64,000 nt of DNA from an uncultured Bacteroidota bacterium (lineage in GTDB: Bacteria; Bacteroidota; Bacteroidia; Flavobacteriales; Flavobacteriaceae): the NCBI GenBank assembly GCA_902598525.1, contig CACKBZ010000002.1, positions 124,001-188,000 of the forward strand, given 5' to 3'. Shown piece after piece: positions 28,095-32,486 of the stretch (within the stretch, counting starts at the first letter, position 1; each line of letters begins with the position of its first letter). The position numbers were made by a program, and so were the translations under genes. The notes beneath the pieces are model-generated. The model worked only from the letters and a program-made list of their open reading frames with translations. It was not told the DNA's origin and did no database searches.

Positions 28095-29312
28095 ATGCAG
28101 ATGATTAATTCTTCACAAATAAGAGACTTTTTTCCCTCTATTGACAGGGTCGATGCTAAAAACAACAAGATAATATACCTAGATGGTCCTGGCGGCACAC
28201 AGGTACCAATACAAGTAATTGAAGCCATTTCCCAATACTACATTAGATCAAATGCAAATACTCATGGAGAGTTTATTACCAGTAAAGAAACGGATGGCAT
28301 AATGGATGAGCTAAGGTATAAAATGTCGGAGTTTTTAGGCTCAGATAATCCTAGTACAATATCAATCGGCCAAAATATGACCTCATTAAACTATAGCTTG
28401 GCAAGAGCATTATCTAAGAAATTTAATTCAGGTGACGAAGTAGTTATAACTGAACTGGACCATGAAGCAAATAGAGGTCCATGGATGGTTCTTGAAAAAG
28501 CCGGGGTCAAACTAGTTGAAATAAAACTCTTACAAAATGGCGGCCTTGATTATGAAGATTTTAAAAGTAAAATCAATGAGAAAACAGTAATGGTCTGTAT
28601 GGGGATGTCGTCAAATGCACTTGGTACATTAAATGACTTTCATTCTGTCAGGTCATTTCTCCCGAATAATTGTTTATTTCTTTTAGATGCTGTCCATTAT
28701 GCCCCACATTTTGCAATTAACGTAAGTGAACTTGGTTGTGATTTTCTTCTATGTTCTGCTTACAAGTTTTATGGACCACACGTAGGTTTTTTATATTCAA
28801 GACCGGGACTTTTAGAAAGTCTTGACACTGACCGCTTAGTTGTACAAGATCAATCTGCACCTTTCATAATAGAAACAGGAACACTGAATCATGCTGCTTG
28901 TGCAGGGGTGTCTGCTGCAATTGAATTTATTGCTAGTCTAGGAGAGGGAGATTCGCTCAGAAGTAAGCTAGTTGATGCATATTCAAAAATAAGTGTCCAC
29001 GAGTTTGCTCTCGCTAAATACTTATACGACTCTTTATGTGCCCTAGATAAAGTTAATGTTATAGGGCAAGATTTTTCAAATACTAAAAGAACGCCTACTG
29101 TATCTTTTGTACATTCTGATTATACTCCGAATGAGATATGTAAAAAACTTGCTTCAAGTAATATTTGTGCTTGGGATGGTCACTTTTATGCTCTTAAAGC
29201 TATTCAGCAACTTGGACTTGAAAAAAAGGGCGGTGTAACTAGACTTGGAATTTCTGTATATAACACCAAAGAAGAAGTTGAAAGAGTAGTCTCAGTTATT
29301 TCAAATCTTTAA
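28095..29312 (+). CDS. Class V PLP-dependent aminotransferase, cysteine desulfurase-like (VC1184-type)
   Basis: YLDGPGGTQVPIQVIEAI, SNANTHGEFITS, LLDAVHYAPHF, LLCSAYKFYGPHVGFLYSR (PLP Lys). Confidence 0.88.
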   Translation: MQMINSSQIRDFFPSIDRVDAKNNKIIYLDGPGGTQVPIQVIEAISQYYIRSNANTHGEFITSKETDGIMDELRYKMSEFLGSDNPSTISIGQNMTSLNYSLARALSKKFNSGDEVVITELDHEANRGPWMVLEKAGVKLVEIKLLQNGGLDYEDFKSKINEKTVMVCMGMSSNALGTLNDFHSVRSFLPNNCLFLLDAVHYAPHFAINVSELGCDFLLCSAYKFYGPHVGFLYSRPGLLESLDTDRLVVQDQSAPFIIETGTLNHAACAGVSAAIEFIASLGEGDSLRSKLVDAYSKISVHEFALAKYLYDSLCALDKVNVIGQDFSNTKRTPTVSFVHSDYTPNEICKKLASSNICAWDGHFYALKAIQQLGLEKKGGVTRLGISVYNTKEEVERVVSVISNL

Positions 29313-30245
29313 TCTTTTTCTCATCCAATTATCAAATATTGTATATACATCTTTGTTTACATAATTTAAGTCCTGTATATTTAAATATTTTATTTCCTTT
29401 GACTCATTTATGCTTTTTAAAATTGAATTAACTTGAATTTTATTAAGCTTTCTCATCTCTTTTATTTCTTTTACTTCTTCTGCCTTATTTATTATAATAG
29501 CCTTATTGTTTCTTATTAATAAATGCCAACAAAGACTATAAGGCATATATTGTTTGTAATTTCGGAACTTATACATAATTTGTTTTTTCAGCATATTCGG
29601 ATTCTCTCTATAAAAATTTGCTATTGATGATTTAATTTGAGGTCTTGCGGTATGATATGATTTAAAATATTGTTTTTTGAAACCAATAATATTTGCTGAC
29701 ATTGATTGAGAAGCATTAAAGCTAGGTCTATATCCAAGAAGGTTTTTCAATTTCATTGATAAAATTTTTATTGGATTTTTATTGTAGCTATTAGCCCATC
29801 GACCAATTAAAACAGCCTTATCATCTTCAAACCAATCCTGCTCTTTAATCTTATTTGTTAAAAAAATGTCATCATTAAAATAAACAAACCTATCCGAAAG
29901 ACCCTCTATTCTATATAGTAATGCGTCAATTGACCTTGGATTGAATGTTGGTAAATATTCTCCATGACCCCTAAAAATTTCTTTATGGTCGACAATTTTT
30001 ACCTTATTTTTTCTCAAAAGATCCTCAATCCCATTAAATTTTGGTGTTTGGCTATCTGAGACAATGAAAATTTTTCTTACAAACGAGGCATAGTAAATTA
30101 TAGATTTTACACAATATTCTATTTCATTTGCTTCTAGATACTGTTTTTTATAGCTTCCGAAACTAGATAAATATTTCTGAATTTTTCTTTTATACTTTTT
30201 ATCAGATCCGTCAACCCATGTAATAACAACGTCTATGCCTTTCAT
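29301..30245 (-). CDS. Stealth-family phosphosugar transferase (capsular polysaccharide phosphotransferase-like)
   Basis: IDVVITWVDGSD (CR1), NEIEYCVKSIIYYASFVRKIFIVSDSQTPKF and RFVYFNDDIFL (CR2) motifs. Confidence 0.88.
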   Translation of the reverse strand: MKGIDVVITWVDGSDKKYKRKIQKYLSSFGSYKKQYLEANEIEYCVKSIIYYASFVRKIFIVSDSQTPKFNGIEDLLRKNKVKIVDHKEIFRGHGEYLPTFNPRSIDALLYRIEGLSDRFVYFNDDIFLTNKIKEQDWFEDDKAVLIGRWANSYNKNPIKILSMKLKNLLGYRPSFNASQSMSANIIGFKKQYFKSYHTARPQIKSSIANFYRENPNMLKKQIMYKFRNYKQYMPYSLCWHLLIRNNKAIIINKAEEVKEIKEMRKLNKIQVNSILKSINESKEIKYLNIQDLNYVNKDVYTIFDNWMRKRLKI

Positions 30246-30440
30246 TTACACAAAATAAAAAAGTTTAATAATGTTAACTTCGAGTGCCTCCGAAATTTTT
30301 AATGCAACGTCAAGCCCGGGAATAAACTTGTTTTTCTCGATTGAAATAATTGTTTGCCGGCTTACCCCAATTTCCGAGGCTAACGCCTCCTGGGTTAAAC
30401 CCTTCCCTTTTCTGTAGTCTTTTACCCTATTAACTAGCAT
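30246..30440 (-). CDS. Single-domain XRE-family HTH regulator
   Basis: RVKDYRKGKGLTQEALASEIGVSRQTIISIEKNKFIPGLDVALKIS; stop codon abuts the Stealth ATG. Confidence 0.92.
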   Translation of the reverse strand: MLVNRVKDYRKGKGLTQEALASEIGVSRQTIISIEKNKFIPGLDVALKISEALEVNIIKLFYFV

Positions 30441-30557
30441 TTGTAAAATAAACTTTACAAATATATTAAAATTAAGTAATGTAGACTTTACATATTATGT
30501 TATTTTTCTTATATGTAAAATTTACTTTACATTATAAAAGTAATGTTTACTTTACAT
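30441..30557. promoter_or_regulatory. Array of four related palindromic putative operators
   Basis: TTGTAAAATAAACTTTACAA (30441-30460), ATGTAGACTTTACAT (30479-30493), ATGTAAAATTTACTTTACAT (30513-30532), ATGTTTACTTTACAT (30543-30557). Confidence 0.8.
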
Positions 30558-30654: not shown

Positions 30655-31263
30655 ATGAAAAATTCAATCGTTTTAATAGCATTTTTGGGATTGCTATCAT
30701 GCAATATAAATCCTAATAACAACGAGCAAGAAGTTTCAGGTGTTAGTATTTCTGATAACACCTATAATATTGAAACCAGTCAGAGCCAAATTATTTGGAC
30801 TGGTAGAGAGCTGTCAACTAGTTCACATTATGGATCATTGAACTTTGTATCAGGTACTTTCGAGGTTCTAGACGGCGTAATTGTAGGTGGTGAGTTTATT
30901 GTAGATATGACATCTATCAACAATCAGGATATGGAAGGCGGAAGTAAAGAAAGATTAGAAGGTCATTTGAAATCAGATGATTTTTTCTCTGTCGATACAC
31001 ATCCTACTGCTACTTTATCAATCAATAGTTCTGAATTGATTTCAGAGGGAAAATGGAGTATCTCTGCAGATCTTTCAATTAAGGGTTACACTCATCCTGT
31101 CAATTTTGAAATGATTAGTTCTGAACAGGGATGGTCTGCAAATCTTGTATTTGATAGATCAAAGTATGACGTGAGATTTAGATCAGGAACTTTCTTCGAA
31201 AATCTTGGAGATAAACTAATATATGATGATATAGAATTATCCATAAACTTAACAACTTTATAA
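30655..31263 (+). CDS. YceI-family lipoprotein
   Basis: YNIETSQSQIIWTGRELSTSSHYGSLNFVSGTFEV...ADLSIKGYTHPVNFEM; lipobox LLSCN. Confidence 0.92.
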   Translation: MKNSIVLIAFLGLLSCNINPNNNEQEVSGVSISDNTYNIETSQSQIIWTGRELSTSSHYGSLNFVSGTFEVLDGVIVGGEFIVDMTSINNQDMEGGSKERLEGHLKSDDFFSVDTHPTATLSINSSELISEGKWSISADLSIKGYTHPVNFEMISSEQGWSANLVFDRSKYDVRFRSGTFFENLGDKLIYDDIELSINLTTL

Positions 31264-31265
31264 TT

Positions 31266-31349
31266 ATGACTTACGATAGACCTCAGTGTGGATGTGGAAA
31301 CACAAGTGATCCAAACGGTTATTGTGATGGTTCTCACAATAGAAAATAA
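31266..31349 (+). CDS. 27-aa CDGSH-type iron-sulfur microprotein
   Basis: ATG..TAA translates to MTYDRPQCGCGNTSDPNGYCDGSHNRK; C-x-C...CDGSH ligand set. Not in the ORF track (under 60 aa). TAA overlaps the next ATG (TAATG). Confidence 0.8.
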   Translation: MTYDRPQCGCGNTSDPNGYCDGSHNRK

Positions 31350-31894
31350 TGAGTAAGATTCTAGCTTTTGGAGCATCATCTGCTAAAGACTCTATGAATA
31401 AAAAACTTGCCTCTTTTGTAGCTAATAAAATAGCTCCTCGAGAGGCAATTTTAATTGATCTGAATGATTATGAAATGCCAATTTACAGTGATGATAGGAA
31501 AAGAGATTCTGGTATTCCGAAAAAAGCCTATGATTTTAAAAATTTGATAAAGACCTCTGAGGGAATAATTATATCATTTGCAGAACACAATGGATCATAC
31601 ACTGCAGCATTTAAAAATATCTATGATTGGATATCTGTAATTGAAAAAGTAGTGTGGAATAATAAACCTATGCTACTTCTATCAACATCTCCAGGTGCGA
31701 GAGGAGGTAAATCAGTATTAAATTCAGCCTTAGCGAGATTTTCTCAGGAAAGTGAATGGGATATACCCAGTTTTCGATTACCGAATTTTAACGAAAATTT
31801 TTCTGAAGAACTTGGCATAGTCGACAACAAACTAAATGTTGATTTAAATGAACAGATTAAACTCTTTGTTAGTCAAGTTAATGAACACCAGTAA
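31349..31894 (+). CDS. NAD(P)H-dependent FMN reductase-like flavoprotein
   Basis: ILAFGASSAKDSMNKKLASFVA, PIYSDDRKRDSGIPKKAYDFKNLIKTSEGIIISFAEHNGSYTAAFKNIYDWIS, LLSTSPGARGG. Confidence 0.9.
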   Translation: MSKILAFGASSAKDSMNKKLASFVANKIAPREAILIDLNDYEMPIYSDDRKRDSGIPKKAYDFKNLIKTSEGIIISFAEHNGSYTAAFKNIYDWISVIEKVVWNNKPMLLLSTSPGARGGKSVLNSALARFSQESEWDIPSFRLPNFNENFSEELGIVDNKLNVDLNEQIKLFVSQVNEHQ

Positions 31895-32486
31895 CGATTA
31901 AAGTACCACCCCAATCTTTACTTTCTCCGTGGCGCCAAGATTCGACCTTGCTTAATCCAGCATTTTTAAAAAAATTTTTCCATTCAATTTCTGAATACAA
32001 CTTCATAATTGAAATACCACATTCTTTCTGCCAAGAATGAGAGGTTTTGTTTTCCATATAAAAATCTATTCCCATTATTAATCTACCTCCAATTTTTATC
32101 CAATTATTATTAATATGTTTAATAAGGTTGCCTGGGTTTTCAAAATAATAAAAGACTTCCATAGAATGAATTATGTCAGCTTTTTCATTTGGCATCCACG
32201 TTAATAAATCCTCACAATAGTATTTATTTTTGACATCAAGTCTTTTTGCTTTGTCAATCATATTTTTTGAGCCGTCGACACCGATTGCTTTTGAACATTT
32301 TGGATCTTCAGTAACTTTCCTAATAACCCATCCATTTCCACATCCTGCATCTATAAAAGAATACTTTGACAATTTGCTAGATGCAAAATTGATCATATTC
32401 ATTACTGATTGATAATGATGCCTTTCCATTCCTTCATCCTTTCCATTCTGGGCCCATTCACTAAAAACATCAATTGGAGTATTCAT
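31878..32486 (-). CDS. Class I SAM-dependent methyltransferase
   Basis: SFIDAGCGNGWVIRKV...IGVDGSKNMIDKAK...DIIHSMEVFYYFENP. Confidence 0.88.
   Translation of the reverse strand: MNTPIDVFSEWAQNGKDEGMERHHYQSVMNMINFASSKLSKYSFIDAGCGNGWVIRKVTEDPKCSKAIGVDGSKNMIDKAKRLDVKNKYYCEDLLTWMPNEKADIIHSMEVFYYFENPGNLIKHINNNWIKIGGRLIMGIDFYMENKTSHSWQKECGISIMKLYSEIEWKNFFKNAGLSKVESWRHGESKDWGGTLIVTGVH

Follow-up and report, generated by a model that had tools for sequence, protein, structure and literature searches.

A conserved YceI, mini-CDGSH and FMN_red gene module, apparently undescribed, in a genus of Flavobacteriaceae

The window, i.e. the whole stretch of 64,000 nucleotides that was analysed, contains a module of three genes that encode a YceI-family lipoprotein, a CDGSH-like microprotein of 27 residues (mini-CDGSH) and a flavoprotein of the FMN_red family. 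The module is real, conserved and operon-like, and it is apparently undescribed, as the original prediction had supposed: no description of CDGSH together with YceI was found in the open-licence literature, nor any description of the microdomain with respect to phages, Flavobacteria or small proteins. The unit that is conserved more widely is the pair of YceI and mini-CDGSH, not the full trio.

The locus and its conservation in the genus

The features of the locus are as follows (window coordinates).

30246-30440, minus strand: divergent XRE/HTH_3 regulator, 64 aa (PF01381, E=8e-16)
30441-30557, plus strand: TGTAAA/TTTACA operator-like repeats between the XRE gene and yceI, six hexamers in the window
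30655-31263, plus strand: YceI-family lipocalin with a lipoprotein-like signal, 202 aa (PF04264, E=2e-25)
31266-31349, plus strand: mini-CDGSH microprotein MTYDRPQCGCGNTSDPNGYCDGSHNRK, 27 aa, conserved within the genus
31287-31337, plus strand: putative metal-ligand motif C8-x-C10-x9-C20-x3-H24, from the alignment of 64 homologues
31349-31894, plus strand: FMN_red-family flavoprotein, YieF/ChrR-like NAD(P)H-dependent reductase, 181 aa (PF03358, E=1.5e-27)
31878-32486, minus strand: convergent SAM methyltransferase, outside the operon and marking its end (PF13489, E=3.5e-14)

The three genes are co-directional and separated by 2 nt (yceI/microprotein) and -1 nt (microprotein/FMN_red), and the open reading frames are exactly as the original prediction had described them. 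At the second junction, TAATG or an equivalent stop/start overlap is present in nearly all of 19 genomes of the genus. The serial order XRE (minus strand), YceI, mini-CDGSH, FMN_red, methyltransferase (minus strand) is found in 19/19 trio loci. The operator-like repeats, another element of that prediction, are also real: between the regulator and yceI, TTTACA/TGTAAA was observed 126 times over the 19 genomes as compared to an expected 9.9. The target of the array may be the XRE-Stealth pair instead of yceI. We note that the XRE gene abuts a gene of the Stealth family (PF11380) with zero gap (29301-30440, minus strand).

A mini-CDGSH match was detected in 20 of the 25 genomes of the window's genus, YceI and FMN_red in 19, and the full trio with the same gene order likewise in 19/25. 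The six genomes without YceI and FMN_red have a completeness of 54-84%, and the genes lie side by side; for both reasons joint loss was not argued from them. The claim that the trio is conserved holds within the genus, but outside it all three genes together occur in just one near lineage (L090, L101).

The proteins themselves are moderately variable. YceI orthologues from 18 further genomes of the genus are 58-77% identical to the window protein, the CDGSH-linked FMN_red copies are 52-77% identical to that of the window, and conservation among the microprotein copies of the genus is 59-91% over 27 aa. Among the 16 microprotein copies of equal length the pooled pN/pS is 0.24, and pN is below pS in 118 of the 120 pairs. 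In other words, the microprotein ORF is a protein under purifying selection; a chance ORF is ruled out by conservation, by pN/pS and by the fusions described below. The lower size limit of Prodigal-type gene callers is usually about 90 nt, which would explain a missing annotation of the microprotein. A second mini-CDGSH protein, of 38 aa and ending in CDGTHWSCR, is encoded away from the trio in three genomes of the genus (L029, L030, L139).

The three proteins

Both partners of the microprotein are members of known families, and here the original prediction stands. The window YceI scores 90.3 bits against the PF04264 cut-off of 23.7, and its N-terminus, MKNSIVLIAFLGLLSC, is lipoprotein-like; by inspection the lipobox is LLSC (LASC in relatives), which is in accordance with export. 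The nearest solved structures are TT1927b (1wub), PA0423 (7bwl) and E. coli YceI (1y0g). YceI as such is near-universal, occurring in 119/121 genomes of a sample with one genome per Flavobacteriaceae genus. Binding of isoprenoid quinone has been reported for relatives of the window protein, not for the protein itself (PMC9113575). By its sequence, the third protein is assigned to the family of NAD(P)H-dependent FMN reductases (96.4 bits vs. the PF03358 cut-off of 24), and its nearest solved structures are the FMN reductase 3u7r, YieF (3svl) and the chromate reductase 4h6p.

The microprotein had been called a minimal CDGSH Fe-S protein. This description is correct as far as the CDGSH-like ligand set is concerned, but the canonical [2Fe-2S] motif is absent and Fe-S binding is what we infer from the ligands. 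Three Cys, one His and a CDG(S/T/A)H ending are present, also in homologues from the protein search, and C8, C10, G11, G18, C20, D21, G22 and H24 are invariant in 64 homologues, although the search pattern itself required these positions. In the published CDGSH consensus, Cys2 and Cys3 are separated by eight residues, and a proline stands two positions ahead of Cys3 (PMC3174974). The pattern of the microprotein is C-x-C-x9-C-x3-H with the CDGSH end, i.e. the Cys2-Cys3 interval is one residue longer than the canonical x8 and the conserved proline is shifted.

Profile and structure searches gave a similar picture. No family of Pfam, NCBIfam or PHROGs recognises the microprotein, and the window copy has no PF09360 match at E<=1, let alone at the Pfam gathering score; sub-threshold PF09360 matches were obtained for 44/64 homologues (best E=7e-4). 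Alignment to the solved CDGSH chains 3tbm/3tbn is weak (E=0.03) and needs a one-residue insertion. The 27 residues leave none for the N-strand, the lid-proline strand or the beta-sandwich dimer. An AF2 model of a 30-aa homologue is of moderate quality (pLDDT 73) with no strand of three or more residues, and found no PDB match with Foldseek. Canonical CDGSH membership is thus ruled out by the spacing and the family cut-offs. No canonical zf-CDGSH protein above threshold was found in the 25 genomes of the genus.

Distribution, fusions and phage forms

GTDB species genomes were scanned with a DNA pattern for the mini-CDGSH, for which at most ~0.03 chance matches are expected in 257 Gb; at least 119 stretches matched. 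Among the matches listed, YceI lies directly upstream (same strand, at most 60 nt) of 57 of the 88 free single-copy Bacteroidota minis, and FMN_red lies directly downstream of 15/88, ten of these with and five without YceI upstream. The carriers of the YceI-mini pair include Polaribacter irgensii 23-P, P. glomeratus and Ca. Arcticimaribacter forsetii. The mini-CDGSH occurs in 5/121 genomes of the one-per-genus Flavobacteriaceae sample and in 1/396 of a phylum-wide sample, the single genome being that of the window itself; it is therefore a patchy, mainly marine trait of small genomes.

Relatives without the mini-CDGSH are informative as to the neighbourhood of YceI. In the Flavobacteriaceae such YceI genes are mostly arranged as MarR - (nitroreductase) - YceI - trpE, and one relative (L270) has YceI-FMN_red-pirin without a CDGSH gene. 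From these MarR-nitroreductase-YceI and YceI-FMN_red-pirin loci it follows that a flavin-dependent NAD(P)H reductase is a recurrent neighbour of YceI, and the mini-CDGSH gene seems to have been added to a YceI/flavin-reductase setting. A pirin/quercetinase-like gene and a divergent HxlR gene are found at several mini-CDGSH loci. Two simple views of the trio were rejected. As a curiosity of one genus it is rejected for YceI-CDGSH and kept in part for FMN_red; as an invariable unit it is rejected by L270 and by the fact that most Flavobacteriaceae YceI-CDGSH loci have no FMN_red.

The association with YceI extends to gene fusion. Ten intact in-frame fusions were found in which the mini-CDGSH is N-terminal to YceI, ahead of the signal sequence (G050, G043, G046, G201, G112, G111, G121, G090, G715 and record L115); one of them comes from the same family as the window, the others from different families of its order. 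An eleventh fusion (G056) has a stop codon in its reading frame. In L022/L047 a CDGSH-YceI fusion has a stop between Cys2 and Cys3, and a downstream start would give YceI alone. On the YceI tree, which comes from a quick search and has some long branches, the fused state needs two changes, both forced by well-supported branches; by these sequences the fusion arose in two independent events. One fusion (L265) is sister to a locus (L194) with the same order unfused, i.e. HxlR (minus strand), mini-CDGSH, YceI. Where longer flanks are available, the fused gene is accompanied by a divergent HxlR regulator and, downstream, by a pirin gene; L265 has HxlR and no pirin within the available flank.

The microdomain is also found apart from YceI. 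At least 120 viral contigs of IMG/VR (L295-L414) carry it, 88 of the matches listed being short free ORFs and 32 longer. The viral forms are mostly free ORFs of 22-50 aa, and the motif is also found as a tag at the N- or C-terminus of longer phage proteins; in L318 a C-terminal copy is attached to a protein that matches head maturation protease families. Among cellular proteins, a C-terminal tag is present on PSP1/RicT-family proteins of Flavobacteriales (L196, L207, L106), with further records of this type in L058, L060-L063, L068 and L069. The B. subtilis member of the PSP1/RicT family belongs to an Fe-S complex. In an Opitutae MAG (L186:4292-4939) ribosomal S16 has an acidic extension with the motif, and free copies are found in Paenibacillus and Brevibacillus. 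Opitutae/Verrucomicrobiota encode proteins of 54-63 aa with two tandem copies (L104, L116, L140, L141, L143, L156, L160, L171, L184, L188, L199); an AF2 model of an Opitutae tandem protein has a pLDDT of 56. The sequences suggest that the mini-CDGSH is a general module that Flavobacteria may have recruited to YceI, and as it occurs without YceI or FMN_red, its basic role would be wider than the transfer of electrons to YceI.

Possible roles and relation to known systems

Our preferred reading of the whole, which is tentative and may well be wrong, is a path from flavin through the mini-CDGSH to quinone within a YceI-centred redox-stress operon. With NAD(P)H as the donor, FMN_red would supply reduced flavin or would itself reduce quinones. 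The microprotein would be a miniature CDGSH-type Cys3-His protein, putatively metal-binding (the cluster being probably Fe-S) and predicted on the cytosolic side; electrons would flow to it from the reduced flavin and on to an acceptor at the inner membrane, presumably menaquinone, or else an electrophile. On the periplasmic side YceI would act as a protective carrier of an isoprenoid quinone or a lipid, and the module would fill the role that cytochrome b561 (LcoA) has beside Proteobacterial YceI lipocalins. The observations behind this reading are the gene order, the conservation, the selection, the YceI fusions and the recurrence beside FMN_red, together with the HxlR/MarR regulators at the same type of locus in relatives.

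Published work gives the steps some chemical plausibility. Reduction of O2 or ubiquinone has been observed with mitoNEET in the presence of flavin reductase, FMN and NADH (PMC9490426), and this literature agrees with the original prediction that a flavin reductase and a CDGSH protein are a sensible pair. YceI lipocalins bind ubiquinone-8 and protect, with the cytochrome b561 LcoA, against lipid peroxidation; LcoA has been proposed to re-reduce the lipocalin-bound quinone, and LcoA and YceI are fused in alphaproteobacteria (PMC9113575). No cytochrome b561 (PF01292) was found in the 25 incomplete genomes of the genus, in which the controls were matched, and so no linked gene of the BcnA-LcoA kind was found there. 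Our confidence is low because YceI is exported and its partners are predicted to be cytosolic, so that the membrane would stand in the way and direct transfer to YceI-bound quinone is not straightforward, and because the motif is atypical: it has no Cys3-adjacent proline, beta-strands or lid-proline, and a chain of 27 aa is too short for the known dimer fold. L270, which retains YceI-FMN_red-pirin without CDGSH, is a further counter-point.

Three other explanations have to be weighed against the flavin-to-quinone path. Instead of carrying electrons, the mini-CDGSH could control its partner as a redox or metal switch with Fe-S, iron or NO as ligand. In the fusions the motif would be part of the n-region of the YceI signal, on the cytosolic side, and could there gate export or stay behind after cleavage as a membrane-anchored sensor; in the operons the microprotein could modulate the reductase or a regulator. 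The position just ahead of the export signal in all fusions found fits this, as do the HxlR, MarR and XRE regulators that adjoin these loci and the reversible binding of NO by mitoNEET clusters (PMC9490426), and attachment to the unrelated PSP1/RicT, S16 and phage protease suits a switch or a label. Free forms are, however, commoner than fusions and a switch gives the FMN_red link no clear role; we regard it as unlikely. Those same attachments, to ribosomal, PSP1 and virion-type proteins, would also suit a structural zinc knuckle, i.e. a small protein- or nucleic-acid-binding tag in which Cys3-His holds Zn and has no redox role. The spacing and the proline do depart from the [2Fe-2S] motif and the protein is shorter than the known CDGSH fold requires, but it agrees with the CDGSH motif in its C-x-C start, in the T that follows CG and in its CDG(S/T)H end, the sub-threshold PF09360 matches of 44/64 members point the same way, and in Bacteroidota the proteins encoded beside it are redox proteins. 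A zinc knuckle is also improbable.

It could also be that the genes do not act on each other at all, and that YceI, the microprotein, FMN_red and pirin are merely co-expressed under electrophile or oxidative stress. The partners indeed differ by lineage (FMN_red, nitroreductase, pirin, DoxX, TrpE) and most YceI-CDGSH loci are without FMN_red. Nevertheless, the repeated adjacency and the two independent fusions to YceI exceed usual co-regulation, and we consider such a bundle rather improbable.

The flavin-to-quinone path can be placed in a broader proposal, which we regard as doubtful. This would be an uncatalogued family of Cys3-His microproteins of 22-30 aa, shorter than what gene callers usually report, in marine Bacteroidota, Paenibacillaceae, Opitutae and many marine phages, serving as a free or attached metal/redox module that, together with YceI and FMN_red, forms a flavin-to-quinone path replacing cytochrome b561. 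If true, YceI lipocalins, which are common in bacteria and whose function is unsettled, would gain a new kind of redox partner, and a single gene cluster would unite the flavin reductase, CDGSH and quinone that have been combined in vitro for mitoNEET. The microdomain may rank among the smallest candidate Fe-S proteins, and since it is absent from Pfam, NCBIfam and PHROGs and occurs in many phage contigs, a whole class of redox/metal microproteins may be unannotated. The idea is testable since cultured Polaribacter strains carry the YceI-mini pair.

As compared to known systems, the microprotein shares with the CDGSH domains (CISD types 1-7, PF09360; mitoNEET, Miner1/2) the C-x-C...C-D-G-S-H order and the T/S after Cys2, and the tandem Opitutae copies recall CISD type 6. 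It differs from them in its 27 aa, in the x9 spacing, in having no proline before Cys3 and no N-strand/lid-proline segment; it is below every family cut-off and fits none of the seven types of 2011 (PMC3174974). The window FMN_red belongs to the same Pfam family (PF03358) as the YieF/ChrR/YhdA-type FMN-dependent NAD(P)H quinone/azo reductases, which include its nearest solved structures by sequence, but its gene shares an operon with YceI and mini-CDGSH. In the BcnA/YceI-LcoA system a YceI lipocalin likewise adjoins, or is fused to, a redox partner on its N-terminal side, and re-reduction of lipocalin-bound quinone has likewise been proposed (PMC9113575); here the partner is a mini-CDGSH with a flavin reductase, and cytochrome b561 was not found in the genus. 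Finally, the trio suggests the same three functions as the mitoNEET/flavin reductase system, i.e. flavin reductase, CDGSH and quinone (PMC9490426); mitoNEET differs in being a membrane-anchored dimer that has the canonical motif, and the in vitro work on it used E. coli Fre.
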